From a virus, in the IMG/VR virus record IMGVR_UViG_3300042883_000328, positions 1-32,849 of that record: a stretch of 32,849 nucleotides of DNA; one strand, given 5' to 3'. This document shows, piece by piece, positions 8,026 through 25,607 of this stretch (its first letter is position 1; every line of letters begins with the position of its first letter). The position numbers were made by a program, and so were the translations under genes. The notes below the pieces were generated by a model that was not told where the DNA came from, searched no databases, and worked only from the letters and a program-made list of their open reading frames with translations.

Positions 8026-8949
8026 ATGGCATATATATCACAATATGAATATTATGAAAATGGTGGCGTAGTACCTGAAGATAAAAATTGGGGATCATAT
8101 CAATATGTTAGTTTAACAGATATTATCAACAACTTTTTGTTAATGTATTCCGGTAACCATTCTTTGGTTAATAATGAGGAGCGTTTTAAAGTATTATTTC
8201 ACGCAAAACGTGCAATTCAAGAATTAAATTACGATGCTTTTAAAGAGATAAAAATACTAGAGTTAACAGTCCCTGATAATTTAAGGTTTATTTTACCATC
8301 TGATTATGTGAATTGGGTGCGTGTATCGTTATATAAAAATGGATGGTTACGTCCGTTATCTGAGAATATTCAAACCCTTTCATCAAAGGCTTACCTTCAA
8401 GATAATACAGGTAGAATTTTATTTGATCAAAATGGGAATGCATTAAGTCCTCAGTACTCTAGTATAGACCTTGACAGATTAACACATATAAAGAAAAGCA
8501 TATACTTAAATCAAGGAAGCCAATTTAATGGTCAGTTAGGATGGAACTATGATGGAATGTGGTATTTTGATTACAACATTGGTACAGCATATGGTTTAAA
8601 TACAGAGACTGCAAACTTTAACCCTACATTTAATATTGAAAGAAAGACAGGGGTTATTAACTTTGATTCATCAATGTCAGGTGAATCTTGTATACTTGAA
8701 TATATATCTGACGGTATGGAACAAGGGGATAACTCTCTGATTACTGTTAATAAGTTATTTGAAGCATATGTTTATGCAGCAATTGAATATGAAATATTAA
8801 GTTCTAAACTTGGTGTACAAGAATATATTATCGCTCGTTCTCGTAAAAAAAGAAAAGCATTGTTAAATAATGCAAAGATTAGAATCAGTAACATTCATCC
8901 CGGCAGACTCTTAATGAATATGAGAGGAATGGACAAGCAAATAAAATAA
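8026..8949 (+). CDS. Head-tail adaptor (ring) protein 2, P22 gp4 / T7 gp11-like
   Basis: This is the probable second connector ring between portal and tail hub. The 307 residues include features of the adaptor family: a helical N-terminal core (NNEERFKVLFHAKRAIQELN), then the beta segment LELTVPDNLRFILPSDYV and WVRVSLYKNGWLRPL, and a C-terminal helical region with a basic end (RSRKKRKALLNNAKIR). In T7 the gp11-like adaptor sits under the portal and holds the gp12 nozzle, and here the gene directly precedes the hub gene by one base, which matches that partnership. The alternative label tail tubular protein A means the same role. Confidence 0.68.
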   Translation: MAYISQYEYYENGGVVPEDKNWGSYQYVSLTDIINNFLLMYSGNHSLVNNEERFKVLFHAKRAIQELNYDAFKEIKILELTVPDNLRFILPSDYVNWVRVSLYKNGWLRPLSENIQTLSSKAYLQDNTGRILFDQNGNALSPQYSSIDLDRLTHIKKSIYLNQGSQFNGQLGWNYDGMWYFDYNIGTAYGLNTETANFNPTFNIERKTGVINFDSSMSGESCILEYISDGMEQGDNSLITVNKLFEAYVYAAIEYEILSSKLGVQEYIIARSRKKRKALLNNAKIRISNIHPGRLLMNMRGMDKQIK

Positions 8950-8950
8950 A

Positions 8951-11900
8951 ATGGCAAATTTTACAAGGAACTTTATAGCAGGAAGAATGAATAAGGTTGT
9001 TGATCAACGTCTTCTTCCTGAAGGTGAATATGTCGATGCTATGAATATCAGAATGGGTTCTACCGAAAATTCTGAAGTTGGTGTAATTGAAAATACAAAA
9101 GGCAATTTACCTCTTACATCATTGACATATATAGATGGTACGCCATTAAGTGCAACTGCAAGATGTATTGGTGCTATTGAAGATAGTGCAAATGAAACTA
9201 TATATTGGTTTGTTCACGATAATGATTTTGGTATTGGAGCTACAGGGAAACTTGATTTAATTGTTTCTTTTAATATATTTACAAACATATTAACGTATCA
9301 CGTTATTAGTATTAATGATGGAAGTAATTTAAATACAACTTTAAATTTTAATCCAAGTTATCTTATTACAGGAGTTAATATTATTAATGGATTATTATTT
9401 TTTACAGATGATTACAATGCTCCTAGATTTATAAATGTAGGCAGGAACTATCCTAATCCTATTAGCAATATAGACCAAATTAGTGCGGAATCTTTACTTG
9501 TTATTAAAAAACCACCTACAGAGTCTCCTACTATTCAACCTATTGTAACAAGTGGTCAAGAGAATTATTTAGATACAAGGTTTATTTGTTTTGCTTATAG
9601 GTATTTATATATTGATGGAGAATACAGTGCTACATCACAATGGTCTCAACCTGCATTTGTTCCTAATCCTTTTAGTTTTAGTACAGATAATTTTCTAAAT
9701 GAGGGGATGACTAATTTTTGCAATTCTGTTATAGTAACTTATAACTCAGGTGGTCCACTTGTAGTTGGTATGGATTTATTATTTAAACAATCCAATAATA
9801 ATATTATTAAAGTTATTGAGAAATTAAATAAAAAAAACTTAGGATTAGCCAATGATACAGATTATCAATATACATTTACAAATAGCAAAATTTTTACCAT
9901 ATTAGCTGAAAGTGAATTATTGAGATTGTATGACAATGTGCCTAGATATGCTAAAGCTCAAACAATTATGGGCAATAGATTAATGTATGGTAATTATGTA
10001 GAAGGTTACAATCTAGTTGATGAATTTGGATCTCCTATTAAATTTGAATATACAACCGAATTAGTTTCTCTTCCTATAGGTAATTCAGAGATTGTAGATT
10101 CAGTAATTTCAAGTAATTATAATATAGATGGAGCTGTTACTGTTGCAGATTCTGCAGTTACATTTGACTTATCGGGTCAAAATTTAGTAGCAGGTTCTGC
10201 TTTTAATATAGATATAACTATAGATCATTCTCAATTTACGGGAGATACACCATTTCCTGTTGAAGTTACAGACTCAATTGTTTTAAATTTTGGATTCTTT
10301 TTATCTACAACATATAATTCAGTATATGAATTAGCTACAAGTATAGAGTTTCAGAATGCAATAGGCACTGCTGCAAACATACAAACAGTACCTAATGCTT
10401 GTTTAGGAACAACATTTACTGATTCTGTAAACTGTTTACTTCCAAATAATTTAGACGCATATATAAAAGTTGCAAGTGGTATTAGTGCAGTTGGTCAACC
10501 TATTACAATTATAACAAGTCCGGGAAGCAATGTGATAGGGCTTCAGTTTATTGCAATGAAATATGTAGATAATGTTACTACTCCAACTCAAACTTTTTAT
10601 GAATATTATAGAGTATTATACTCAAATGCTACTTTTCAAGAAATAGCTACTCCACAAAGTTTGCATAGCAATCGTGATTATGAGATTGGTATAGTGTATA
10701 TGGATGAGTTTAATAGAGCAACAACTGCTTTAGTTAGTCCAAACAATACTGAACACGTTCCTTGTGGATTTTCAGCTAATAAAAATTCTATACAAGTAAC
10801 AATACCACCTACTCAATTACCTCCTGCTTGGGCAAAGAGATATAAGTTTGTTATCAAACCTGACGAAGAGAATTATGAGACAATTTATTGTAGCATATAT
10901 TTTCAAGACCCATTAACTAATGAGGCTTATTTATTGTTAGCAGGAGAGAATGCAAGAAAAGTTGAAAAAGGAGATAGACTTATTGTAAAAGCAGATTCAA
11001 ATGGAGCAACTGCAAGTTGTGTCTATACAACTGTTTTAGATAAAACTGTAGAATCATCAAATTTTATTGAAATACCAAGTGAGTTAGATCCTACTGTTTT
11101 TATACCAATTCCTGCAGGTGTTTATATGAAAGTTAATCCAAATAGTTTTACTATTGTTCAGGATGAACTAGCCCTTATTGCTCCGGGAAAAAGGCACGAA
11201 AGAGCTGCTGCTGCAGGTTTAATAGGTCCGGGAACATTTCCTATTTTATACTACCCAATGAATTATTATGATACAGTAACATCTGCTTGGGTAGATTATT
11301 CTGTACCTTCAGGAAGTAGAGTTATTTTAAGTATTAAGCAAAATCGTGGAGGAGTAGGATGTTCTTGTGAACAAAGATCAAGTACATTAGAGAAAACAAT
11401 AACAGTTTCTAACAATTATGACAATATGTATGATTGGTGGGTGGGAGATGATATTGAACAAATTTTAAAAGATTGCATAGTAACTGCAGCTTGTGGGGAG
11501 ACTGTTCCTGAAAATGAGTTTATTAATACAATTACAAATGTTGCAGGAGATATACCAACCGATCTTGTAACCAATTATTATAGATTTTATAGAAATACAT
11601 CGACTAATCAATTACAATTGATGATTACCGGAACAAGAAGTTGTACGGGTGTAGGATATCCAAATAATCGCTCTTCTGATGTTGATGCAAATATTACAGT
11701 ATTTCGTGCTGAAAACAATTTAATATTTGAAACAGAACCATCTGATGCTTTACCTGATGTGTTTTTTGAAAATGAAATGTCATTTGCTATTACAAATGGT
11801 AATCATATGGGTAATATCCAAAACCAAAATATAGGTACGGGTACACCTGCAATTGTTGACACTAAGTTTTTCAATTGTTTTGCATTTGGCAATGGAGCAG

Positions 11901-13384
11901 AAAGTTATAAGATTCGTGACTCAATTGTAGGAAGGTCTTTTAATTTTGGTAATAGAGTTACAAGTGTATCAGAACAAGATTACAAAGCAACTGACAGATT
12001 CTCAGACATTACTTATAGTGGTGTATATAATGCAGAGTCAAACATAAATAAGCTAAATGAATTTAATTTAGGATTATTAAACTACAAAAATTTAGAAACA
12101 TCGTTTGGAGATATATTTGTAATGGATGGAAGACAAACAGATGTTCTTGTTTTACAAGAAGATAAAATATCATATGTATTAACAGGTAAAAATTTATTAT
12201 CTGATTCTACAGGTGGTGGTGCAGTAACCTCAGTTCCTGAAGTATTAGGAACCCAAATTGCTCGTACTGAGAAATATGGAGTTAGTTTTAACCCTGAGAG
12301 TTATATTCAGTGGGGATACGACAGATTTTTTACAGATGTAAAGCGTGGTGTAGTTCTTCAATTAAGAGGCGATTCTGTTTCAAATGACCAATTAAAAGTC
12401 ATATCTGAAATGAATATGCGCACTTGGTTTAGAGATACTTTCAACAATTCATTTAGTACTCAAAAATTAGGTGGGTTTGATCCATATATGAATGAGTATG
12501 TTTTGTCAACCAATGACATACAATTACCATCCAACCCTCAGTGTATAAACTGTGGTATTTCTCAAGTATTTAATTTATCAACAGTAGCAGGAGAGGTAAA
12601 ACAAATGGTATACTGTGTTGATTTAGGTCCTACGATAGGATTAACTGACATTACATATGAAGTTATAGCTATATCAGTAGGAGGCGAATTTGAAATAATT
12701 GTTGATTATAATGGAACCATTGGTACTACAGGATTGGTAAATACTTCAGGCACGTTAACATTTAATAAAGACACTGTTTCAGTAGAAACTGCAACTATTA
12801 CAATAAATTACACAGGAGATATTACATTAAATGTTCTTGCTGATTGTTGTAATGCTGAGTCTTTAAACATAGTACAAATTGTTTTGACAAGTGATTATAA
12901 TTCAGGAGATACCATTCACACTCAATATAGATTTAATAGTGGAGCATTTGTTTCTCCATTGCAATCAAGTTTTGTAATTTTTGCTGACGGGACTACCAAT
13001 CCTCTTGTATCAAGATACAATGTAACTACAGATTTTGTTGGTACAGGAGGGTTCCCTCCTGCAGGAAGTACAATGAGTTTAATTTCAAATCAATTTGCAA
13101 CTGATACATTTGTATTTGATGCAGCTAATGACAAGTTTAAATACTTTGTTTCAGATACTTTATATGCAAATACTACTGTTGATATAAATACTTTACTAGG
13201 TTTAGCAACAACTGCAACACCTAACTTAGGTAGTGGTTCATATAATTATGCAGATTTTACTGTTCCAATTCTAGAAGATTATTTATATTTGATATGGGAT
13301 TTCAGAGAATCAGTTCCTGTTACACTTTGTTACTCAAATATAGATTTATTTGACGTTTGTTGTAACTGCGGAGTAGCACCTTAA
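8951..13384 (+). CDS. Tail hub / stabilization protein, P22 gp10-like, with C-terminal beta domains
   Basis: This 1477-residue tail protein probably forms the nozzle below the adaptor rings. The N-terminus (NFIAGRMNKVVDQRLLPEGE, then YVDAMNIRMGS) is the hallmark opening of the P22 gp10-like stabilization proteins of crAss-like phages. The body is beta-rich and Asn/Thr-rich, as expected for beta-propeller and beta-sandwich structure. Residues about 1110-1195 end the conserved body. Residues about 1197-1300 look like an Ig-like beta-sandwich (FEIIVDYNGTIGTTG, TLTFNKDTVSVETATITINY) and 1301-1465 like another beta domain, so adhesion domains seem to be appended. Paired cysteines occur (CSC, CINC, CCNC near the C-terminus). 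It follows the adaptor gene by one base and begins with an A-rich leader. Confidence 0.75.
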   Translation: MANFTRNFIAGRMNKVVDQRLLPEGEYVDAMNIRMGSTENSEVGVIENTKGNLPLTSLTYIDGTPLSATARCIGAIEDSANETIYWFVHDNDFGIGATGKLDLIVSFNIFTNILTYHVISINDGSNLNTTLNFNPSYLITGVNIINGLLFFTDDYNAPRFINVGRNYPNPISNIDQISAESLLVIKKPPTESPTIQPIVTSGQENYLDTRFICFAYRYLYIDGEYSATSQWSQPAFVPNPFSFSTDNFLNEGMTNFCNSVIVTYNSGGPLVVGMDLLFKQSNNNIIKVIEKLNKKNLGLANDTDYQYTFTNSKIFTILAESELLRLYDNVPRYAKAQTIMGNRLMYGNYVEGYNLVDEFGSPIKFEYTTELVSLPIGNSEIVDSVISSNYNIDGAVTVADSAVTFDLSGQNLVAGSAFNIDITIDHSQFTGDTPFPVEVTDSIVLNFGFFLSTTYNSVYELATSIEFQNAIGTAANIQTVPNACLGTTFTDSVNCLLPNNLDAYIKVASGISAVGQPITIITSPGSNVIGLQFIAMKYVDNVTTPTQTFYEYYRVLYSNATFQEIATPQSLHSNRDYEIGIVYMDEFNRATTALVSPNNTEHVPCGFSANKNSIQVTIPPTQLPPAWAKRYKFVIKPDEENYETIYCSIYFQDPLTNEAYLLLAGENARKVEKGDRLIVKADSNGATASCVYTTVLDKTVESSNFIEIPSELDPTVFIPIPAGVYMKVNPNSFTIVQDELALIAPGKRHERAAAAGLIGPGTFPILYYPMNYYDTVTSAWVDYSVPSGSRVILSIKQNRGGVGCSCEQRSSTLEKTITVSNNYDNMYDWWVGDDIEQILKDCIVTAACGETVPENEFINTITNVAGDIPTDLVTNYYRFYRNTSTNQLQLMITGTRSCTGVGYPNNRSSDVDANITVFRAENNLIFETEPSDALPDVFFENEMSFAITNGNHMGNIQNQNIGTGTPAIVDTKFFNCFAFGNGAESYKIRDSIVGRSFNFGNRVTSVSEQDYKATDRFSDITYSGVYNAESNINKLNEFNLGLLNYKNLETSFGDIFVMDGRQTDVLVLQEDKISYVLTGKNLLSDSTGGGAVTSVPEVLGTQIARTEKYGVSFNPESYIQWGYDRFFTDVKRGVVLQLRGDSVSNDQLKVISEMNMRTWFRDTFNNSFSTQKLGGFDPYMNEYVLSTNDIQLPSNPQCINCGISQVFNLSTVAGEVKQMVYCVDLGPTIGLTDITYEVIAISVGGEFEIIVDYNGTIGTTGLVNTSGTLTFNKDTVSVETATITINYTGDITLNVLADCCNAESLNIVQIVLTSDYNSGDTIHTQYRFNSGAFVSPLQSSFVIFADGTTNPLVSRYNVTTDFVGTGGFPPAGSTMSLISNQFATDTFVFDAANDKFKYFVSDTLYANTTVDINTLLGLATTATPNLGSGSYNYADFTVPILEDYLYLIWDFRESVPVTLCYSNIDLFDVCCNCGVAP

Positions 13385-13393
13385 AAAAAACAT

Positions 13394-14743
13394 ATGGCAA
13401 CAAGTTCATCATATTACATAAATGCACCCTCTCTTGGGTCAGCAACTGCTGTATTTACAGATAGTGCATTATTAATTTGTGCTACTGACGGATTCTATTC
13501 AGATGGCGTTATATCAAGAGAGCAGGTAAGTTGTGTCTTATTGCCACAACAAACTTGTCCATCTTGTGCTACACCTTGTGGTGTAAATATATCTGCAAGT
13601 GGTACTCAGGGTATATATTTATTAAATTTAGATACAGGAACTGCAGTAGGTGATGTTGGTGCAGTTATAGTTAGATTTGACCCTTTTAGTGTGCCTGATG
13701 GTATTAGAGGAACACTTGGAGCAAATGTGTATAACAAGTTAACATCATCTGTAGACGGGTTACACGAGAGTACAAATGCAGGATCGTTTACATATGTGGG
13801 ATCAACAGGTGGTGATTGTGGAATATCAGGAACAACTTACCCTGCATTAATTGAATATTTATATGATGGTACGGCATTTTATGCAACAGGCAATACTCAA
13901 AGTGTAACTGTTGCACCGGGTGATGTGTCTTTAGGAGCTTTTGCTCCCGGTAATTGTTTAATGGTTATACCAAAACTTACATCTTCTCCTTCAATAATTA
14001 ATTTTGAGATAGTTGGTCCTTGTTCAGGAACAGCGTGGGATATGTCAGTAGCTTGTCCTGTATTACTTACAGGGTTTAGTTCAAGTGTAATGGCTGCAAG
14101 TTCAGCAGCAGTATGTTTACTATCTGAAACAGTTACTTATTATAATGCATCATTACCAAACACTCCGGGTATTGTTGGGTTGTATGATTTTGTGTATTCA
14201 GATGCTTATGGGTCTACACAGTTACCTGCAGGATTTTATCTTGCAACAGGGTCAATAATAGGTGGTAATGATTGGTTTGAGGTAGATGCCGATGGAGTTG
14301 TAATTAGTTTAGGTACTTGTGTACCACCACCCCCTGTAACGTATAACTGTATCTCAGGCGTTTGTACTGATCCCGGTGATGGAACGGGCACATTTGCTAC
14401 ACTAGGTGCTTGTCAGGCTGCTTGTTTTCCTGTAACATATAATTGTGTCTCAGGTGTTTGCACTGATCCGGGTGACGGAACAGGTACATATGCCACATTG
14501 GGTGCGTGTCAAGCTGCGTGTCCTGCTGCAACTAATGTTATTATGGAAGTTTGGAATAATGTTGGAGGAATTTGTCAATATCAAGTAGGTATGGATTTTG
14601 TAGTTGTACCGGGTAATACGCCTGCTTTTGGTCAGTATTATGCTTCAGGTATTCCTGATGTTTTTTATGTACCAACAGGATATACAAGTACATCATCATC
14701 TACTCCTTTTACTTTTGTTGGTGGTTCTATAGGATGTCCATAA
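13394..14743 (+). CDS. Tail protein with duplicated cysteine-rich repeat
   Basis: This is a 449-residue tail-associated protein of unknown exact role. It is rich in Ser, Thr, Gly, Ala and Cys, with little charge, and predicted almost all beta, like surface-exposed phage tail or fibre proteins. Residues 1-310 contain several CxxC-type pairs (CPSCATPC). Residues 316-379 are two tandem 32-residue repeats, each with four Cys and the core GVCTDPGDGTGT, introduced by a short Pro linker (VPPPPVT). A final beta domain of about 65 residues ends in Cys-Pro. It sits between the hub and another tail gene. Host-surface contact is a reasonable inference; nothing enzymatic is visible. Confidence 0.65.
   Translation: MATSSSYYINAPSLGSATAVFTDSALLICATDGFYSDGVISREQVSCVLLPQQTCPSCATPCGVNISASGTQGIYLLNLDTGTAVGDVGAVIVRFDPFSVPDGIRGTLGANVYNKLTSSVDGLHESTNAGSFTYVGSTGGDCGISGTTYPALIEYLYDGTAFYATGNTQSVTVAPGDVSLGAFAPGNCLMVIPKLTSSPSIINFEIVGPCSGTAWDMSVACPVLLTGFSSSVMAASSAAVCLLSETVTYYNASLPNTPGIVGLYDFVYSDAYGSTQLPAGFYLATGSIIGGNDWFEVDADGVVISLGTCVPPPPVTYNCISGVCTDPGDGTGTFATLGACQAACFPVTYNCVSGVCTDPGDGTGTYATLGACQAACPAATNVIMEVWNNVGGICQYQVGMDFVVVPGNTPAFGQYYASGIPDVFYVPTGYTSTSSSTPFTFVGGSIGCP
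14339..14530 (+). repeat. Tandem 96-bp repeat encoding a 4-Cys module (2 copies)
   Basis: Two in-frame copies (14339-14434 and 14435-14530), 32 codons each. The protein copies differ at a few residues only (Ile/Val, Phe/Tyr and the last three), while many third codon positions differ, so the protein pattern is kept by selection. Each copy reads YNC-x2-GVC-TDPGDGTGT-x-ATLGAC-x2-AC. Confidence 0.9.
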
Positions 14744-14771
14744 TAATAGAATAATAATAAAATAAAAAAAA

Positions 14772-15557
14772 ATGGCAAATTATACATTGACATATAGCGA
14801 TATGGTTTCAGGATGGGTATCTTTTTACTCATACTACCCTGATTGGATGATTGGGATGAATAATTATTTCTATACTTTTAAAGGAGGCAACCTATATAGG
14901 CACAATGTAAATGCTTCTAGGAATACATTTTATGGACAATTTAGTCCTACTACATTACAAAGTGTATTGAATACAGCTCCTTTGGAGAATAAATTATTTA
15001 AAACCATTAATCTTCAAGGAGATGCAAGTTGGTCCGCAGCGTTAGAAACAGACCTGCAATATTCAGGATTTATTCAAGCTTCTTGGTTTGAGAAAAAAGA
15101 AGCCTCTTATTTTGCATTTATAAGAAACAATTCACTAGGTGAACTTGCTCTTAGAAGTGTAAATGGTATAGGAAGAAGTTATCAAGTTACAGGAAGTGGG
15201 TCAGCAGTAATTGTTAAATTTTCAGTTTCTCCATTAATTGCTATAGGAAGTATAATAAGTGTGGGAGATATATTATATTTTTCACTGCCTCCTTATACTG
15301 TTCCTGTTTTAGCAGGAAAAGTTACAGCTATTACGGTTGACTTTCCAAATGGTATAAACCAATTAACTATTGATACTACTATTCCGGGAACTACTCCAAT
15401 ACCTATACAGGATGCATTTTTCTTATATATAAAAAATTCAGTAGCTGAGTCTCACGGGGTGTTAGGACATTATTGTACATTTAGTATTGAGAACACATCT
15501 AGTGCTAAAATTGAGTTATTTGCAGTTCAGTCAGAAGTAATGAAAAGTTTTCCTTAA
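14772..15557 (+). CDS. Tail structural protein of unknown role
   Basis: This 261-residue product has the segments WVSFYSYYPDWMIGMNNYFY, then TFKGGNLYRHN and NTFYGQF. They resemble a segment found in tail-hub or collar proteins of crAss-like phages, in which a similar stretch belongs to the long hub protein itself. Residues about 145-225 form a beta-rich stretch (VSVGDILYF-like, LTIDTTIPG) that may be a small barrel. The rest is aromatic and beta-rich. A hub accessory or detached hub domain is the best guess. It lies 28 nt after the Cys-rich tail gene, behind an A-rich leader, and 12 nt before the GNAT-like gene. Confidence 0.6.
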   Translation: MANYTLTYSDMVSGWVSFYSYYPDWMIGMNNYFYTFKGGNLYRHNVNASRNTFYGQFSPTTLQSVLNTAPLENKLFKTINLQGDASWSAALETDLQYSGFIQASWFEKKEASYFAFIRNNSLGELALRSVNGIGRSYQVTGSGSAVIVKFSVSPLIAIGSIISVGDILYFSLPPYTVPVLAGKVTAITVDFPNGINQLTIDTTIPGTTPIPIQDAFFLYIKNSVAESHGVLGHYCTFSIENTSSAKIELFAVQSEVMKSFP

Positions 15558-15569
15558 ATTTGTGACAAT

Positions 15570-15980
15570 ATGGAGTTATATATACGAGAACTGAACGAAA
15601 ATGATTATGATGAGATTCTTGTAGGATGGTGGAAGCAGTGGGGATGGTTGCCTCCTGAAAGGGATTTTCTCCCTGATAATGGAAAAGGTGGTATTATAGT
15701 ATTTGACCAAGATGTTCCGGTTTGTGCAGGTTTTATGTACATAACCAATTCAAAAGTAGCTTGGGTAGATTGGATAATATCAAACAAGGAATATACAAAA
15801 AAACCACAAAGAAAGGATGCCATTAAGTTATTGGTATCAGCACTTACAAATATTTGTGAAAAAACAGGCAATAAATTTATATACGCATTAATTAAAAATG
15901 AAAGCCTTATAAATACCTATACGGAATTAGGGTATATAAAAGGAGATTCTTATACAACTGAAATGATAAAAACATTATAA
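15570..15980 (+). CDS. GNAT-fold protein in T7 gp13 position
   Basis: A 136-residue protein with the layout of a GNAT N-acetyltransferase: N-terminal strand IRELNENDYDEIL, central strands with VCAGFMYIT and VAWVDWIIS, helix KDAIKLLVSALTNICEKTG, strand FIYALI and the terminal motif NESLINTYTELGYIKGD, typical of the GNAT C-terminal Asn...Tyr...Gly-Phe/Tyr segment. The acetyl-CoA pyrophosphate loop, normally R/Q-x-x-G-x-G/A, reads KKPQRKDA (residues 77-84) and lacks both glycines, so catalysis is doubtful. In T7-like phages a GNAT-fold gene product (gp13) precedes the internal virion proteins gp14-gp16, and this gene occupies that same place. A virion assembly role is therefore as likely as acetylation. 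It ends one base before the next start. Confidence 0.68.
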   Translation: MELYIRELNENDYDEILVGWWKQWGWLPPERDFLPDNGKGGIIVFDQDVPVCAGFMYITNSKVAWVDWIISNKEYTKKPQRKDAIKLLVSALTNICEKTGNKFIYALIKNESLINTYTELGYIKGDSYTTEMIKTL

Positions 15981-15981
15981 T

Positions 15982-16803
15982 ATGGCAGCATTTACAACCA
16001 TTGCAGCAGGAATAGGGTTAGCAACAACTGCAGCTTCTACTACTATGTCATTTGTGCAAGCAGGTCAGCAAAAAAGAGCACAACGTCAAGCTGAAAGAGA
16101 TGCAGATCAAGCTATGCAAGAAGCAAGAAAAAAACTTGAAGTAAATTATTATGACAAGTTATCTATACAAAAAGAACCATATGAATTAGAAAGAGAGGCT
16201 CTTCTTTCTCAAGGTGCTCAAGCTATTCAAGCAGGTGTAGAAAGTGAAAGAGGTGCAGCAGCAACTGCAGGTCGTGTACAAATGGCTATGAATGAAGGAC
16301 AAGGAGGAATAAGGTCTGCAATGGGTCAAGAGTTAAGTAATCTTGAGAAATTAAGTGCTCAAGAAGATAGTAGACTTCGTGATGTAGGAACTCAATTAGA
16401 TTTGGAAGAGGTTGCAGGTGCTCAATTAGCAGCAGCAAATGCTCAAGAATTGGGTGCTCAAGCAATGCAACAGGGGATGCAAGGTGTTACAAGTTTGGGG
16501 CAACAATTAACTCAATATGCTCCACTTTATGAGAAATCACAATCAGCAAAAGAGTTTGGAAAATTGCAATCAGACTATGCTTCTGCTGCTCGAAACAATA
16601 GACTAGACCCTAGATATATGCAAAATGGAGTAGCTATGCCATTCCAACAAGCTGTTCAGTCAATGGGAGGTGGAACAGGAGTTGATTATGGGTTTAATGT
16701 ATCAGGAGTTGGAGCTATGGAGAATGATCCATTTAGAAGTTATATGACTCAACAAGATGTTAGGAATTTAAGAAGAATGAGACAAGCAGGATTTTCAAGG
16801 TAA
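15982..16803 (+). CDS. Internal virion protein, T7 gp14-like
   Basis: A 273-residue protein rich in Ala, Gln, Glu and Gly. Residues 1-30 form a hydrophobic Ala/Gly/Thr segment (ITIA-like opening FTTIAAGIGLATTAA), then a long charged helix rich in Ala, Gln, Arg and Glu. The middle contains LSSQGAQAIQAGVESERGAA-type small-residue helices, and the C-terminus is Gly/Met/Arg-rich. This is the look of T7 gp14 and its analogues, short ejection proteins that insert into the outer membrane at infection. Its place immediately after the GNAT-fold gene and before two larger proteins supports the role. Homology cannot be shown from sequence alone because these proteins diverge quickly. Confidence 0.6.
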   Translation: MAAFTTIAAGIGLATTAASTTMSFVQAGQQKRAQRQAERDADQAMQEARKKLEVNYYDKLSIQKEPYELEREALLSQGAQAIQAGVESERGAAATAGRVQMAMNEGQGGIRSAMGQELSNLEKLSAQEDSRLRDVGTQLDLEEVAGAQLAAANAQELGAQAMQQGMQGVTSLGQQLTQYAPLYEKSQSAKEFGKLQSDYASAARNNRLDPRYMQNGVAMPFQQAVQSMGGGTGVDYGFNVSGVGAMENDPFRSYMTQQDVRNLRRMRQAGFSR

Positions 16804-16817
16804 TTAAAAAATAATCA

Positions 16818-18701
16818 ATGGGAACATATTATAAATACGCAGAAAGAAATGCTGATTCTCAAATAAATTGGGCAGAGGTTGGTAAGGATATGAGCGATAT
16901 GCTCAAAGATGAGGTAAAAATTAGAGAAGAAAAAAAAGCTGCAATTGATGCTGCATCAAGAGAATTTGGTTTAGTATTAGCTCAACCACCACAAGGAGAA
17001 CATACAGGAGCTAATGAGTGGACATTGCGTTTTGGCGATAATGCATCTCAATTTTTAAAAATGCAAGACCAACTTTTGAAGTCAGGTCAAATGAAAGTTA
17101 AAGATTACACCATTTCAAGACAAAATTTAACTGATGGTACTGATGTAGCATTTTCTCTTATGAAAGATTATCAGAAAGTGTATGGAGATAAAATGGAAAG
17201 ATATAGAACTGATAAGTCACAAGATTTTGAACAATGGTTAATGGGGAAGTCTGAAATGATGGCTAATTTTAATAAATCTGATTTGAGGATTAACCCTACT
17301 GATGGTACTGTTAGTATAGCAATGAAAACATTGAAAAATATTGATGGTAAAGATGTTTATGTAATGGACAAAAATCCTAACACATTTGCTACTGTAAATA
17401 CTGTAAAAAATTGGATTCAAGGATTTTATGATAAATTTAATACCAACTCTGCAGCAGATGCTTTTGTTGGACAATTGGGAGATGAATTAAAAGCAACAAC
17501 AACTCAAGTTGCTACATTAAGTAAAACAGGTCAAATAACAAGTGTTGCTGATATCACAAGTAGAACAGATATTGATCCTGATACTAAAGAAGTTCTCTTT
17601 AAATTTATAGATGCAGAAAATCAAGGAATAAAATCAGTTTATGCCAATGATATTAATAGAATGTCTGCTATTACAAATAGTGTAAAATTTTGTAGTAAAA
17701 ATAATAAACAATATACATTTACAGAAGATGAAACAGATGCAAAAAATAATCCTGAGAAAATATTAATAAAAGTAGACGAAAATTCAGGCAAACCAAAACC
17801 TGTTTTTTCAGATATACAAATAAAGGATTCTGATAATTTTATGCGTAATGAATTTAGGCGTAGATATGATTACAAAGAAGACATTAAAACTACTCCTCAA
17901 TTAGATAGAAATGACCCAAGACCAAAAACAGCAGCAGAAATTGGATTTGAACAAGCAAAAGATGAGGCTTTGATTTTTGGACAAAAAGTAGGTAATTTTG
18001 TTTCAGGAGAAAATGCAGAAGAAACTCAAGCTTCTGCTGATTATTTCAATACTTTGCCGGGAGTAAAAGCAGTAAAAGATGAATTTACTTTTGATCTTAC
18101 TGTTACTGATAAAGAAGGTAATTTAATAAATAGAAAATTTGAATTAGATAAAAATGGAGGATTTAAAAATGCTCACAATGTAGGTATATCAATTGCTAAA
18201 TTATTAAATATAGATAAGTTACCTGAAGAAGCAGTTGTAAAAGCTATGGATGATGTATTGAAAAAAGGGAAAGGACCAACAGGATTTTCTGCAACAAGTT
18301 CAACAAAAGAAATTGTAGAAAGAGATTATGGAACTGATTTAGGTAATTATGCAAATGAAAAACTTTCAACATCAATTGTAGAAGATAACCCGGAGGAAAC
18401 AGTTAAAAAGTTAAAACAATCTTTTGGTAAATTAGGTTATACATTTGAAGGAGAAACTCGTGGAATAACTCGAGATGATGTTATACAAATTAAAGCACCT
18501 AATGGTACAATGAGTGAATGGATAAATATTGATGATTTAAAAAATACAAATAAAATTGCAGATTTTATTAAAAAGAATAAAGATAATAATGTAATAAAAG
18601 CATCAAAATTATTTCAAACAGCAGAAGAAAAGGCAGAAGAAGAAACAGCAGCAGCAAAAAAAGCAGGAACAGGAACTATAAAAGGTGGTAAGACTAGGTA
18701 G
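16818..18701 (+). CDS. Internal virion protein, T7 gp15-like
   Basis: A 627-residue, mostly helical, Lys/Asp/Asn-rich soluble protein without signal peptide, membrane segment or recognised catalytic motif. It opens with YKYAERNADSQINWAEVGKD, followed by a helix of alternating charge, which is typical of tail/ejection proteins encoded just before the giant internal protein in Bacteroidota podoviruses. The last 25 residues are an Ala/Glu/Lys helix ending in a Gly-rich basic tail. By position (third gene of the GNAT / Ala-rich / medium / giant series) it corresponds to T7 gp15, which forms the periplasmic tube of the ejectosome. The assignment is from order and size, not similarity. Confidence 0.55.
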   Translation: MGTYYKYAERNADSQINWAEVGKDMSDMLKDEVKIREEKKAAIDAASREFGLVLAQPPQGEHTGANEWTLRFGDNASQFLKMQDQLLKSGQMKVKDYTISRQNLTDGTDVAFSLMKDYQKVYGDKMERYRTDKSQDFEQWLMGKSEMMANFNKSDLRINPTDGTVSIAMKTLKNIDGKDVYVMDKNPNTFATVNTVKNWIQGFYDKFNTNSAADAFVGQLGDELKATTTQVATLSKTGQITSVADITSRTDIDPDTKEVLFKFIDAENQGIKSVYANDINRMSAITNSVKFCSKNNKQYTFTEDETDAKNNPEKILIKVDENSGKPKPVFSDIQIKDSDNFMRNEFRRRYDYKEDIKTTPQLDRNDPRPKTAAEIGFEQAKDEALIFGQKVGNFVSGENAEETQASADYFNTLPGVKAVKDEFTFDLTVTDKEGNLINRKFELDKNGGFKNAHNVGISIAKLLNIDKLPEEAVVKAMDDVLKKGKGPTGFSATSSTKEIVERDYGTDLGNYANEKLSTSIVEDNPEETVKKLKQSFGKLGYTFEGETRGITRDDVIQIKAPNGTMSEWINIDDLKNTNKIADFIKKNKDNNVIKASKLFQTAEEKAEEETAAAKKAGTGTIKGGKTR

Positions 18702-18722
18702 AACAAAATAAAATAATTAATT

Positions 18723-21700
18723 ATGCCGGATTTAAAACAAGCGTTAAAAGATTTTGTAGCTACTTCTAATAGCGGAAAATATCCCGATGAAGCTACCTTA
18801 TTATCTAAATTTCCTGAGTTAAAAGGATATGATATTAATGTATTAAAAGATTTTGTAGCCACTTCTAATAGTGGAAAATATAAAACAGAAGATGAATTAT
18901 TTGCTAAGTTTCCTGAATTTGGAGTTAGTGGGCAAGAATCTCCTTTAAAAAAAAAAGAGGAGCCAATACCTCCAATGGCTCCTCAGCAAGAGCAAACACC
19001 AAGCGCAATACCCGGAGCAAAACCTTATACGGAGTCTCCTTTGGAAGATACTTCTTCGGAGTTGCCATCTTCAGGGACTGACAATAGTTTTTTTAAAAAA
19101 CCATATGCTCCTCCTGTTACAAGTGATATATCTAACATAGGTATTCCAAAATTTGAACAAAAAAAGGTTTTTGGAGAAACCAAATTAAAGGAACAGGAGA
19201 TACCAACTAAAATAAAAGGGTCTATTGAATCAGTTACACCTGAATTAATAAACTCAAATGAAGAGTACGTAGTACCTCAAATGAACTACCAATTTGGTGA
19301 TCTAGGATTTAAGTTTGAAGAGTCAGGTGCTACAGGAGATTGGATGAAGGCTACTGCTCCTAATGGTAAAAGTATAGAGATATCCTTAGACCCATTTATG
19401 TCATCTAAGGCAGTAGACGAATCAAAACGACTTAAAAACTTTATTAAACAAAATACTGCTCAATTAAGTGGTCTAGATTTAATTGAAAAGCAATATCAAA
19501 ATGAAAATAAAAAGTTCTTAAATCAAAAAGAAATTGATGACGAAATAAAGAAAATAAATTTAAGTGAAGAAAATCTTAATTTAGAAATAAAGTCTTTTAT
19601 TGCAGAAAAAAATAATGTAGACAAAGAATTAAAAGATTTAGAAAATACTCCACAAAGTCAAAAGAGCACACAAGAATACTTAGACAAATTAACGTCTGCT
19701 ACACAAAGGAAGTTGGATATACAGTCCAAACAAATTTCTATATCTGAAAAGGTAGACAGGTTACCAAAATCAAAAGAAGAATTAAATAAAGCTGTTGGCA
19801 AATATGCTGATATGAAGTCAGAACAAGGTACTTGGTTAGGGGGTACTTTAAATTTTTTATTAGAAGGAGCATCAAGTATATCTGCAGGTGCAGCTAATTC
19901 ATTTATAGACTTAACTCTTGGATTTTTGCCAACAGATATGTTAATGACTCCCGAACAACAAAAGTCAGAATCTTTACGTATTTCAAAAGAACTAAAAATA
20001 AAACAACCAACTGAAGGACAATCTTATGAGAAATGGTTAAATTCTTTAAGTCAATCAGAAAAAGATGAAATAGATTCTAAAATAATAGATTTAAGCAAAA
20101 AACAAGTAAAAGCTGATATACTTCCTACTATAAGAGAAGGTAATAGAGTTGTTTTAGGAGATTCAAAAACAACTGTTGAATGGACTCGTTTAAAAGAACA
20201 AGGATTTTGGGGAGGAGCTTATGCAGGTCTTATAAAATCATTACCTGCAATACTTCCTTCAATAGCAGGGGGATTGGGAGGAAGAGCATTAACAACTGCA
20301 TCATTTTATTCTCAAATTAGTGATGGACTTGAACAAGAGATGTCATCAAATCCTAATTTTAAAGATATTTCAGAAAATGAAAAGGCTGCTATTATTTTAC
20401 CAATTGGAATAGCAGGTGCTGTTCTTGAAGAATTTGGTTTTAGAAATGCAATAGGAAGTAAAGGATTATTGAATAATTTAGTTTTAAAAGCACTTGGTAA
20501 ATCAGGTGCTACAACTACTGCTACTACATTTAAAGAACTTGTTCAGAATGAAGTTGAAAGTATGATTGCAAAAGGAGTTCTTACATTGACAGCAGCAGGA
20601 CTTGCAGAAGCTGAGACAGGTGCTGCTCAACAAATAGCTGAATATGGTATAAAAGATATTTACAATGCAGCTAAAGGAACTAAAATGTTTAATAATCCTG
20701 AAACATTTACTGCTGAGTGGGTAAAAGAAGTAGTTAAAGCAGGTGCACAAGAAGCAGTTGGTGGATTTATTATGGGTATGCCAACTGCTATTAGTTCTGC
20801 ATATACTAAAAAGGGATTTTTAGCAATGGACGATGCTACATTTAAAATTTTTGAAGCTGCAGCAAATGATGAGAATATTCAAAAAGCATTTGTAACAAAA
20901 CTTAAAAACGAATATAATAATGGAGATATTACTATAGAACAGGCAAAAGAAACATTAAATAACTATAGGAATTCAGTTGGTTTATTTAAATCTATTCCGG
21001 AAGGATTAGATACTGAAGCAAAAAAAGAATCTATGAATCTCTTAAAAGAAAAAAGAGATTTAGAAAATCAAATAATTGGAAAAGATGATGCTTTAGTTAA
21101 ACCGCAAAAAAATAGAATAAATGAAATTAATGAGTCACTAACTAAAATAAGCGAAGATGCCATTCAAAAACAAGCAACAAATGAAAGCGTGTTACTCAGC
21201 GAACAATCCAAAATGGGATTGCAAGAAATGGGCGAAGGAAACGTCCAACCTGAAGTCACTACCACAGGGACCGAAGAAGCCATCACTCCTGAGATCAGCA
21301 CGGAAGAAGTAATTTTTAAAGAAACTCCCTTTGATAATAATCTTTATCAAGATAAGAAAAAGGTTGTTTTAAATAATCAAGAGTTTGAATTTAATAGACT
21401 CAATACAAAAGGTGAAGAAAATGTATTTACAGTAGAAAAAGATGGAGAAGAAATTGGAAGAGCGACATTGTCTAATGATGGAAATTATTTAGAAAATATC
21501 AGAATAAATGAAGATTACAGGAGACAAGGTATTGCTACTAATATGTATAATTATATAGAGCAACAAGCAAATGTAAAATTAAATCCTTCTCCTGTAAAGC
21601 AAAGTAAAGCTGTAGAAGGTTTATGGGAAAAAAGGATGGGACTGAAACCTGTTGCTAAAGAAGCTTCTTTAAAAATAGAGCCAATTATTTCTGAAACTGA

Positions 21701-24700
21701 ATTGCCGGGATATGATAGAATGATTCAAGAGGTAGATGGTATAGTAAAAAAATCAAAGGATCGTGGAGTAACTAATGAAAAGGTGAAAGAGAATGTGATG
21801 GACTATGTTGCAAAGTCATCAGTATATGAAAAAGCCACTGATGTACAACGTGAGAAAGTATTCCGTGAGGTAAATAGAATGTTTGGATTAAAAGAAGTAG
21901 CAGCTCCATCAGCAGCAAAAATTCTTGGAAACATTAAAGATGTTGCCAAAATAACAATGACTGAAAAGCAAGGTCTTGTAAAACAAATAAAGGATTTGGC
22001 AAGAGGCGGTAAAGATGCTAAGAAAGCTATTTATTCAGCAGCTCAACAATTAAGTAAAGAAATAAAAGAATTACGTAAGCAAGGGAAATTAAATACCAAT
22101 CAAGCAGCAAATGTTGTTCGTAAATTTAGTAAAGTAAATGTTTTAAGTAAAATATCTATAGATAGGTTTACTGATTATATGACTAAAGTTTTTGAAAATG
22201 CAGACTACATATCTAAATTATCTACAGCTAAAAAATTAAAACAAAATATATCTGAACTTTCAAGAAATAAAGATAAGAATGCTGATTTAAGAGAGTTAGG
22301 TAGACAATTTTCTGAGATTGATCCGTCAATGGTGGATGATATAGAAAAGTACAATGGAATTGCTGCTCAAATTAAAGAGTCAATAAAAGGTTCTACCGCT
22401 AGAAAAGGAGAAGTAAAATTTGCTGAAATTATAAATATAAAAGATGCATCTAATTATATTAAAGAAACAATAGACGCTCAGGATAAAAAAATAAGAGAAG
22501 AAAGGATTGACGAGATACAAGACCTTATGGGGATAGATGCATCTAAGTTTAGTGCTGAAGATATGCTAGACCTATTAAAGGGAGATAAAAAAGTTGAAGT
22601 AAATAATGAAAAGTCTATAAAAGAAACAGCTAAAAATGCATTTAAAATTTACTCTTCTATTATAAAAAATACAATTAGCACAGGAGTGGATGCCTTTACA
22701 GGAGAAAAAGTTGATTTTACTAAAAAACAAAAAGAATTAGTAAACAACTTTGCTGATATGGATTTGGATTTATTAGATGCTAAGGAGTCAGTTGCAGCAG
22801 TAGATGCATTAACTAATTTTTTACAAAACCATTCAACCGCTAAAATGGAAGGTGTTTTTGCTGATTACACAGGAAGGTTAAATATAAAAACGCTTGTAAA
22901 ACAAGGTAAGGTAGGTATTGCTTTGCGTAAATTATGGAATAAAAGATTAGCAAGAATCTTTACAGAAGGTGGTACTCCTTTACCTGAAGTATTTACTAAA
23001 ATATTTAAAGGAGTTAGAGAAGGTCTTTACATAGCAACTAAATCAGGATTTAATAAAATAGTTAATGGGAATGCATTTGCAAATACAAGGGTTCAAAATA
23101 TAACTAAAGAATATATTGATAAACTATTTAAAGCAAAGCCTAATGGAGAAAAGTTTAATACTGCATACAATGATGCAGAAAGAGGTATAGCTTCAGATTT
23201 AATGAGAAGTGTTATTGGCACTGAATCTGAAATGCAAAAAGAATTTGATAGAAGAAAATCAATATTGAATCAGTCTATTGAAGAACTTTCAACAGGTACA
23301 GATGAGCAACAACAGAAAGGTAAAATATATCAAAAGGTATATGACAATATAGTCAAAGGTTCCAAAAATATAAATGACATAGAAAAAAAACTAGACAAAA
23401 CAAATCTAGAAGCTATTTATTTTTGGATGAAAACTTATGATGATATTTTCCCTGAAATATATGACTATATGTTAAATGTTAGAAATACAGTATTAGAAAA
23501 AAACTTGAATTATTCTTCTCCTGATAGGTATGTTAAATTAAGTAAAGAAAAAAATAAACTTTTAACAGATGACCAACCTATGTATGGAAGAGATGGAGAA
23601 CTTTTAATTAAAAAAGAGGCAGGAGGATTAATGAAAGCAGAACGTCCTGATGAATTACCAAAAGGTATGTATCGTGATTATTCTTTTGATAAAAACAATG
23701 TTAATTCATTACGAGATGTATTAGTTGATATGAATACAGGTGCTGCTATTAGACAACTAGATGCATTTAAAAACTCAAAATATTTTGATAAGTTAATACC
23801 AAATGCAGAAGATAGAGACTTATTAAAAAGAAGATTTGCTTTATATGTATCTAATATTAGAAATGCAGAATACAATGGTAGTGAAGATTTAGAAGGGATG
23901 ATGAAATTTCTTGACAGGTTAGCAACTTTAGGTGTGGGTATGGCATTAGGTTCTCCAACACAGGCGATTAAACAAACTATTCCAATTGGGATAAATACTA
24001 TGGTGAATGCATCAGGAATGCTAAAATTAGGAGCTGCATTTAATCCTGACTTTAATAATTTTTTCTACAATACCGGATATGCTAGTGCAAATAGAGGAAT
24101 TGAATCTCAAGCAGAGATTAGTTCTTTAAACAAAAAGATTGAGACCGCATCAAATAAAGTGGAACTTTTGAAAGCAATTGAGAATGCTAATAAGTGGTGG
24201 TTAAAAACATTTTTAGTTAAACCTGATGTGTTTATTGCAAGAGCTTCTTGGCAAACTTATTATGAACAAGAACTAAGAAAACAAGGAATTGATACTAAAA
24301 ATTTAGATTATAGTAAACATAAATTAAATGAGCAGGCAGGAGACTATGCAGAGACGATGGTATCAAGACAACAAAATACTCCTGACAGTGCATTATCAGG
24401 GTCTTGGTTTAGCAAAAGTGGGTCTGATAGAAAGATACTTGCTAAACTATTTTTAAATATGGCTAATTTTAGAATGAATCAATCATCAAGATTAGCTGCT
24501 GATTTATCTGTATTAGGTCATTGGGGTGTATCTACAACAGAAGATAAAGCCATTGCTGCAAGGTCAATAGCAGGATACGCTGTTGAGCAGGCTATTTACA
24601 GATTAATATCTACAGGTCTTGCTATAGGAATAGGATCAATTGTTTTAGGTATGAGAGGTGATGATGAATCTGAGGAAGATAAAAAGAAAAGAATAGATGC

Positions 24701-25607
24701 AATAATTAAGGGACAATTAACAGGTTCCGTTATGGATATTTTATCTCCTGCACCATTCCTTGATGTTCCTGTAAAAGAAATATTATCACCAACATTAGAG
24801 GGAATTGAGAAAGCAACAGGACTTCCATTATCTATATATGGAAATAAGAAACAAGATTATTCTAATTTATTAGGTGCATATGGTATTCCTATTCAAAGAG
24901 CAGAAGAACTTTATGATGCAATTAAACTAGGCACTACAGGAACATATACAGATGAGTTTGGCAAAGAAAAACAAATAACTGAAGAGGATCAAAAAATTAT
25001 ATCAGAACTGATACCTCTTTCTGTGGGTACTGTGTTAGGTGTAATGCCATCTGATGTTGCTACAGGAGTAAGAGATATAATAAAGTTCTCTAAAAGAAAA
25101 CAAACAACAGATGAGGAAGTAGAACAAAAAATAGAGAATGCTGAAAAAAAGCAGGAAGATGTTGATCAAAAAATAGAAGTGCTTGATAAGTTAAAGCAAA
25201 AAGCAAAGAATCAGTACGAGCAAGAAGCTATTGATGAAAAAATATATGAGTTAGAAGCAGATAAAGAAGAAAAGAAGGTTATCAAAGAAGCAAATGCTGA
25301 AGAAAAAGAACTTAAAAAAGAACTACTTACAAATCCTGTTACCGGAGAAGAGTATGACAATGAAACTGCATTAAAAAAATATAACCCACGTCTTTACAAT
25401 AAAAACTTTGGCGTTAGGTCTCAATGGTATAAAGACCACAAATACGAGAAACTTGTTGAGAAAAAAATGAACGCTGAGATTATAAAGATGGAAGACGAAG
25501 AGCATAACTACCAAAAACCTAAAAAGACTTCTTCTAAAAAAAGAAACTCAGATGGAAGTTTTAAAAGGTCATATTATAGAAAGTATTCATCAGAATCTTC
25601 TAATTAA
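18723..25607 (+). CDS. Giant internal virion/ejection protein, T7 gp16-like, with embedded GNAT domain
   Basis: A 2294-residue multidomain protein, probably packed in the head and ejected with DNA. Visible layout: two tandem 33-residue repeats (1-66), a Pro/Glu-rich linker (67-130), a small beta domain near 193-228, coiled coil 245-365, several Gly/Ala hydrophobic segments (about 494-530, 556-590, 675-700) able to enter membrane, a GNAT-like domain about 870-980 with INEDYRRQGIATNMYNYIEQ, long helical region 1000-1950, a further hydrophobic segment near 1960-1980 (STGLAIGIGSIVLGMRG), an acidic/Lys-rich coiled coil 2120-2215 and a basic Ser/Lys/Arg/Tyr tail. I saw no lytic transglycosylase motif, unlike T7 gp16. 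The gene is the last of the left arm and overlaps the opposing nuclease gene by 8 bp. Confidence 0.7.
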   Translation: MPDLKQALKDFVATSNSGKYPDEATLLSKFPELKGYDINVLKDFVATSNSGKYKTEDELFAKFPEFGVSGQESPLKKKEEPIPPMAPQQEQTPSAIPGAKPYTESPLEDTSSELPSSGTDNSFFKKPYAPPVTSDISNIGIPKFEQKKVFGETKLKEQEIPTKIKGSIESVTPELINSNEEYVVPQMNYQFGDLGFKFEESGATGDWMKATAPNGKSIEISLDPFMSSKAVDESKRLKNFIKQNTAQLSGLDLIEKQYQNENKKFLNQKEIDDEIKKINLSEENLNLEIKSFIAEKNNVDKELKDLENTPQSQKSTQEYLDKLTSATQRKLDIQSKQISISEKVDRLPKSKEELNKAVGKYADMKSEQGTWLGGTLNFLLEGASSISAGAANSFIDLTLGFLPTDMLMTPEQQKSESLRISKELKIKQPTEGQSYEKWLNSLSQSEKDEIDSKIIDLSKKQVKADILPTIREGNRVVLGDSKTTVEWTRLKEQGFWGGAYAGLIKSLPAILPSIAGGLGGRALTTASFYSQISDGLEQEMSSNPNFKDISENEKAAIILPIGIAGAVLEEFGFRNAIGSKGLLNNLVLKALGKSGATTTATTFKELVQNEVESMIAKGVLTLTAAGLAEAETGAAQQIAEYGIKDIYNAAKGTKMFNNPETFTAEWVKEVVKAGAQEAVGGFIMGMPTAISSAYTKKGFLAMDDATFKIFEAAANDENIQKAFVTKLKNEYNNGDITIEQAKETLNNYRNSVGLFKSIPEGLDTEAKKESMNLLKEKRDLENQIIGKDDALVKPQKNRINEINESLTKISEDAIQKQATNESVLLSEQSKMGLQEMGEGNVQPEVTTTGTEEAITPEISTEEVIFKETPFDNNLYQDKKKVVLNNQEFEFNRLNTKGEENVFTVEKDGEEIGRATLSNDGNYLENIRINEDYRRQGIATNMYNYIEQQANVKLNPSPVKQSKAVEGLWEKRMGLKPVAKEASLKIEPIISETELPGYDRMIQEVDGIVKKSKDRGVTNEKVKENVMDYVAKSSVYEKATDVQREKVFREVNRMFGLKEVAAPSAAKILGNIKDVAKITMTEKQGLVKQIKDLARGGKDAKKAIYSAAQQLSKEIKELRKQGKLNTNQAANVVRKFSKVNVLSKISIDRFTDYMTKVFENADYISKLSTAKKLKQNISELSRNKDKNADLRELGRQFSEIDPSMVDDIEKYNGIAAQIKESIKGSTARKGEVKFAEIINIKDASNYIKETIDAQDKKIREERIDEIQDLMGIDASKFSAEDMLDLLKGDKKVEVNNEKSIKETAKNAFKIYSSIIKNTISTGVDAFTGEKVDFTKKQKELVNNFADMDLDLLDAKESVAAVDALTNFLQNHSTAKMEGVFADYTGRLNIKTLVKQGKVGIALRKLWNKRLARIFTEGGTPLPEVFTKIFKGVREGLYIATKSGFNKIVNGNAFANTRVQNITKEYIDKLFKAKPNGEKFNTAYNDAERGIASDLMRSVIGTESEMQKEFDRRKSILNQSIEELSTGTDEQQQKGKIYQKVYDNIVKGSKNINDIEKKLDKTNLEAIYFWMKTYDDIFPEIYDYMLNVRNTVLEKNLNYSSPDRYVKLSKEKNKLLTDDQPMYGRDGELLIKKEAGGLMKAERPDELPKGMYRDYSFDKNNVNSLRDVLVDMNTGAAIRQLDAFKNSKYFDKLIPNAEDRDLLKRRFALYVSNIRNAEYNGSEDLEGMMKFLDRLATLGVGMALGSPTQAIKQTIPIGINTMVNASGMLKLGAAFNPDFNNFFYNTGYASANRGIESQAEISSLNKKIETASNKVELLKAIENANKWWLKTFLVKPDVFIARASWQTYYEQELRKQGIDTKNLDYSKHKLNEQAGDYAETMVSRQQNTPDSALSGSWFSKSGSDRKILAKLFLNMANFRMNQSSRLAADLSVLGHWGVSTTEDKAIAARSIAGYAVEQAIYRLISTGLAIGIGSIVLGMRGDDESEEDKKKRIDAIIKGQLTGSVMDILSPAPFLDVPVKEILSPTLEGIEKATGLPLSIYGNKKQDYSNLLGAYGIPIQRAEELYDAIKLGTTGTYTDEFGKEKQITEEDQKIISELIPLSVGTVLGVMPSDVATGVRDIIKFSKRKQTTDEEVEQKIENAEKKQEDVDQKIEVLDKLKQKAKNQYEQEAIDEKIYELEADKEEKKVIKEANAEEKELKKELLTNPVTGEEYDNETALKKYNPRLYNKNFGVRSQWYKDHKYEKLVEKKMNAEIIKMEDEEHNYQKPKKTSSKKRNSDGSFKRSYYRKYSSESSN
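18744..18881 (+). repeat. Near-identical 39-bp direct repeats, 99-bp period, at the start of the giant gene
   Basis: Copies at 18744-18782 and 18843-18881 differ at two bases only, both synonymous, and encode LKDFVATSNSGKY twice. The rest of each 33-codon unit is diverged but similar (TLLSKFPEL against ELFAKFPEF). The near identity of the first part points to recent duplication or gene conversion. Confidence 0.9.

Follow-up and report, generated by a model that had tools for sequence, protein, structure and literature searches.

A GNAT acetyltransferase domain in an exchangeable slot of a giant phage protein

Why would a phage carry an acetyltransferase-like domain within a protein of 2294 amino acids that is encoded beside its structural genes, and is this domain a fixed part of the protein? 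We address these questions with the IMG/VR virus record IMGVR_UViG_3300042883_000328, whose 32,849 nucleotides (positions 1 to 32,849) were all analysed and are referred to as the window. A sequence-only reading of this DNA had proposed that the giant protein is an ejection protein with an intact GNAT domain, which could enter the host with the DNA and acetylate host or phage targets, and that the gene cassette holds a second, degenerate GNAT fold.

The giant protein and its GNAT domain

The phage in the window is related to Elemovirus, and the giant protein closes its structural gene block. Terminase, portal, and virion structural PHROGs lie upstream of the giant-protein open reading frame (18723..25607, plus strand) on the same strand, and this is the last plus-strand gene of the block. 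(Near its N-terminus, the giant protein has a pair of tandem repeats, encoded at 18744-18820 and 18843-18919, with the pattern DFVATSNSGKY..LxxKFPE.) Given this gene order, the relatedness to Elemovirus, and the presence of comparable GNATs in a T7-like gp16 and in a virion protein of phage phi14:2, it is plausible that the product is an ejection protein, and the virus probably ejects it into the host. The protein contains hydrophobic segments, but these are not decisive for an ejection role.

The GNAT acetyltransferase domain spans residues 874-973 (21342..21641, plus strand), as delimited with Pfam, an AlphaFold model, Foldseek, and VIA-align. Within residues 890-970, two Pfam models match above their cut-offs: PF13673 (E = 5.6e-7; 30.0 bits versus a cut-off of 23.6) and PF00583 (E = 1.8e-6; 28.6 bits versus 20.7). 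GNAT is the only domain that Pfam recognised in the window's own giant protein. The pyrophosphate loop of motif A, RRQGIA (R/QxxGxG/A; 21519..21536, plus strand), is complete, and the peptides that had drawn attention to the region are in place (NIRINEDYRRQGIA within 21486-21563, and LWEKRMGL at 21621-21644). The claim of a GNAT domain is thereby confirmed, for residues about 874-975.

The full protein also scores 59.9 bits with a profile of eight other phage GNATs (the best of 200 shuffles scored 4.8). A caveat is that this score is somewhat flattering: the profile excludes the window, but seven of its eight members were gathered by similarity to the window's domain, which is somewhat circular. 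The Pfam matches are independent of this profile. Across the nine aligned GNATs (the window's and the eight others), the G of RxxG is invariant. The nine-sequence alignment was too diverse to be useful as a search query; a four-sequence alignment recovered a pair of T7-like gp16 homologues along with two further loci. Searches for the GNAT alone found no direct relatives in the viral contigs or genome contigs that were covered.

The earlier reading had suggested structure prediction as a check, and AlphaFold returned the GNAT fold. Models from a single sequence and from eight sequences have a five-stranded sheet (residues 874-883, 886-894, 900-906, 909-916, and 922-928) and the helix of motif A (937-949), with pLDDT mostly 70-90 in this part. 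A motif-B-like helix follows (962-972). The top rows from Foldseek are acetyltransferases (probability 1.00 but E = 0.0036), and the model matches HAT1 with a VIA-align Z of 10.0 (rmsd 2.0 over 85 residues). The structural matches span many acetyltransferase families, including protein and aminoglycoside acetyltransferases, and do not indicate the substrate. (We also considered a resistance function and rejected it, as the matches to aminoglycoside acetyltransferase families are far below the cut-offs.)

Whether the domain is intact is a separate question. The label 'intact' is supported only for the acetyl-CoA half, with motif A and the sheet; the C-terminal half is short and poorly modelled. 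After residue ~955, pLDDT is about 33-56, and the exchangeable cassette described below ends at residue 975, after the motif-B-like helix, so that strands beta6-beta7 are absent. A stand-alone 135-aa protein from Pseudomonas phage HRDY3 terminates where the window's GNAT does, and gp205 of Tunturiibacter phage Tunturi_5, which is annotated as an ADP-ribosyltransferase toxin, has a C-terminal GNAT domain with an equivalent end. These two proteins argue that phage GNATs of this subfamily may naturally stop at this point. The window's GNAT likely binds acetyl-CoA and is probably catalytic. It has no close relative among the other fetched scaffolds, so conservation of catalytic residues can be judged for motif A only.

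The proposed second GNAT is a separate 136-aa protein (15570..15980, plus strand), which is probably degenerate and GNAT-like. It belongs to phrog_17252, which is conserved in flavophages (Elemovirus, Cellulophaga, Tenacibaculum, and Maribacter phages), and the Elemovirus and window members are 41% identical. Its similarity to acetyltransferases is weak (phrog_1249, E = 0.0034), and we found neither the R/QxxGxG/A signature nor a Pfam match in it. That the gene cassette holds two GNAT folds, with this one degenerate, is plausible.

An exchangeable slot in a conserved scaffold

A comparison with a near-identical phage shows that the GNAT occupies a slot as an exchangeable module and is no fixed part of the giant protein. 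The record IMGVR_UViG_3300042318_000386 (L002) is 94-95% identical to the window over 15.8 kb: 94.9% over window positions 8735-21292 and 94.1% over 21648-24528. Between these, the window's 21293-21647 (residues 857-975, plus strand), which encodes a linker and the GNAT, does not align to the 328 bp at 12565-12892 of L002, yet the reading frame is preserved. On either side of this cassette, flanks of about 290 and 350 bases match at 99.7% and 98.6% identity. We call the L002 module unrelated because it failed to align and has no Pfam match; it has no counterpart in the other fetched scaffolds either. This in-frame replacement is known from one near-identical pair, and both members are metagenome-derived contigs.

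The middle of a 1477-aa virion protein (9301-11700) is a second variable region relative to L002, at 72-92% identity with 95-100% on both sides. Base composition was tried as a sign of foreign origin and gave none: the cassette has 29.0% GC versus 31.4% for the gene, and its GC3 is 16.9% versus 16.6% in the rest of the gene.

The slot lies between two segments that are conserved in relatives. The pre-slot segment is residues 796-856 (21108..21290, plus strand), with the core peptide AIQKQATNESVLLSEQSKMGLQEMGEGN at 21159-21242. The post-slot segment, delimited by alignment, is residues 989-1180 (21687..22262, plus strand) and starts with ..ETELPGYDRM... We collected relatives from viral contigs with the whole protein and the post-slot segment as queries; searching IMG/VR with the post-slot segment gave 135 related stretches, of which 80 were retained. 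The pre-slot peptide is present in about 50 fetched ORFs (duplicates included). From this peptide to the LPGYDRM segment, the slot varies from 123 to 2009 aa, with a median of 667, across 42 ORFs that include near-duplicates and are not all independent; measured in the same way, the window's slot is 131 aa. The C-terminal arm, from near ELPGYDRM, keeps a length near 1280 aa (the median in 64 ORFs), while the length ahead of it ranges from 716 to 2704 aa.

What else do these proteins carry? To look for modules, we scanned the variable regions upstream in two sets, of 30 and 33 sequences (with the window among the 33). ART-PolyVal is present in 4 of the 30, and LPD23, RadC, a DUF6782 metallopeptidase, leucine-rich repeats, and further GNATs are each found in single or few members. 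These modules are assigned to the upstream variable regions as a whole, and each may or may not lie between the two slot borders; a Kinase-PolyVal is located inside the slot of L009. Kinase, RadC, and GNAT modules occur in other members of the scaffold family, and one member (L045) combines LPD23, ART, and a metallopeptidase in one polypeptide. Judging by these domain matches, some members of the family seem to carry several disparate effector domains in one polypeptide.

Residues 851-1114 of another giant protein (L004, ORF 9884-17647) form a 264-aa module (FRAIHDFYGHAELG...) without a Pfam match, and copies with 36-74% identity are found in the related giant proteins, about 20 distinct ones in all. 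Between L004 and L006/L007, this module is 59% identical but the scaffolds are only 24-34% identical, which is expected if modules move between scaffolds.

What the GNAT might do

We consider it quite probable that the giant protein is a polyvalent virion protein with a cargo slot, and that the GNAT is one interchangeable effector that is delivered at infection and acetylates an amine substrate of the host or the phage. The scaffold would consist of the conserved N-terminal part (about 1-856) and C-terminal part (about 989-2294), and the stretch between the two conserved borders would be swapped among phages, most likely via recombination in the flanks. We infer that virions contain the giant protein and deliver it into the cell together with the DNA. 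Early in infection, the GNAT would then acetylate an amine substrate of the host (or of the phage), and this would most likely be a protein. As for the broader proposal that related phages exchange whole effector enzymes in a dedicated slot of an injected protein, and so strike first with different enzymes, we lean only slightly towards it.

Alternatively, the GNAT could be a catalytically dead fold that is kept in the slot to act as a spacer or to bind protein or DNA. The low-confidence C-terminal half and the missing beta6-beta7 would suit this, and so would the degenerate, GNAT-like look of the neighbouring 136-aa protein. But the acetyl-CoA pyrophosphate loop is formed by motif A, which is complete and aligns with the eight other phage GNATs, and other scaffolds carry predicted enzymes, so we think that a dead fold is unlikely, though it is the alternative that we take most seriously. 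An active enzyme might also have another kind of target: DNA, nucleotides, or a small molecule, as would be the case if it shielded the incoming DNA. In phage Mu, incoming DNA is protected by Mom, a GNAT-like enzyme that modifies DNA; this gives the idea a precedent. Nucleic acids are also the predicted targets of many polyvalent modules (PMC5512222). However, we found no positive sign of a nucleic-acid or small-molecule substrate, and the structural matches include protein as well as aminoglycoside acetyltransferases (which says little about the substrate); we view such a target as improbable.

Or the domain could be no injected effector at all but act on the phage that encodes it, perhaps by acetylating virion proteins as they assemble. 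In favour of this, it is part of an apparent virion protein. Its exchange in a slot, with kinases and ADP-ribosyltransferases in the relatives, fits effectors better than assembly, and we rate this explanation as the least probable of the three. The delivered effector remains our preferred reading, in which the GNAT appears as one of a set of interchangeable tools for early infection. If it is correct, the window and L002, two nearly identical phages, record an effector exchange at defined borders of a virion protein; they would also make a clean test, with one scaffold and two different cargos. The pre-slot peptide and the LPGYDRM segment would also be a sequence handle for gathering early-infection effectors from environmental phage genomes.

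Comparison with other phages and with polyvalent proteins

GNATs or GNAT-like modules are found in several other large phage proteins. In gp16 of Pectobacterium phage PP74 (L012), a T7-type ejection protein, a short GNAT of the kind seen in the window's protein is buried. This GNAT is in a 193-aa insert (residues 711-903) at a single point between residues 715 and 720 of T7 gp16. The PP74 scaffold is T7 gp16 with its transglycosylase domain, and beyond the GNAT we saw no similarity to the window's scaffold. Literature searches for GNATs in gp16-type ejection proteins turned up nothing, or no paper evidently on the subject.

Giant virion proteins of Cellulophaga phages phi14:2 (g067; crAss-like), phi13:2, and phi46:3 (both Pachyviridae) also have a GNAT-like module, in scaffolds that differ from the window's. 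A 140-aa stretch is about 81% identical across the three (L014, L015, and L018), and the rest of the proteins do not align, which suggests transfer between phage families. The resemblance of this stretch to the GNAT of the window is weak (E = 0.04-0.5 with tblastn, and about 2e-4 with blastp for phi13:2 and phi46:3), and its Pfam matches are sub-threshold or none. The phi14:2 protein is annotated as a virion protein from MS/MS proteomics.

The Elemovirus phages elemoA and elemoE, which infect Flavobacterium and are named as podophages (vB_FspP), likewise have a gene block that closes with a giant structural protein. They share the pre-slot peptide with the window at 55% identity, and tblastn detects no part of the window's giant protein in Elemovirus other than residues 808-856; the remainder of the 3694-aa Elemovirus protein has no tblastn-detectable similarity to it.

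Polyvalent proteins were defined by Iyer et al. 2017, who listed GNATs, kinases, and ARTs as constituent domains, proposed that these proteins are injected along with the DNA, and suggested recombinational cassette variation for one case, in Verrucomicrobium (PMC5512222). The polyvalent GNATs that they described come from (pro)phages of Gammaproteobacteria, a single uncultured Mediterranean phage, and T4SS-type elements (PMC5512222). A member of their GNAT family 2, gp113 of mycobacteriophage Alice, gives a weak BLASTP pair with the window (E = 0.026 over 45 residues). Unlike those settings, the window's GNAT is in a phage group related to the flavobacterial Elemovirus, and in one slot with fixed borders. 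In the open-access literature, we found no description of this phage group, of a fixed-border slot, or of exchange between nearly identical genomes; the group and its slot appear to be undescribed so far. The kind of protein is already known, and from its sequence features the window's family fits it. Like polyvalent proteins, its members are very large and carry exchangeable predicted effectors (GNAT, kinase, ART, LPD23, RadC, and metallopeptidase), of which the Kinase-PolyVal, ART-PolyVal, LPD23, RadC, and GNAT modules are hallmarks of that kind. They are also encoded beside structural genes, as is seen for the 2294-aa gene itself.
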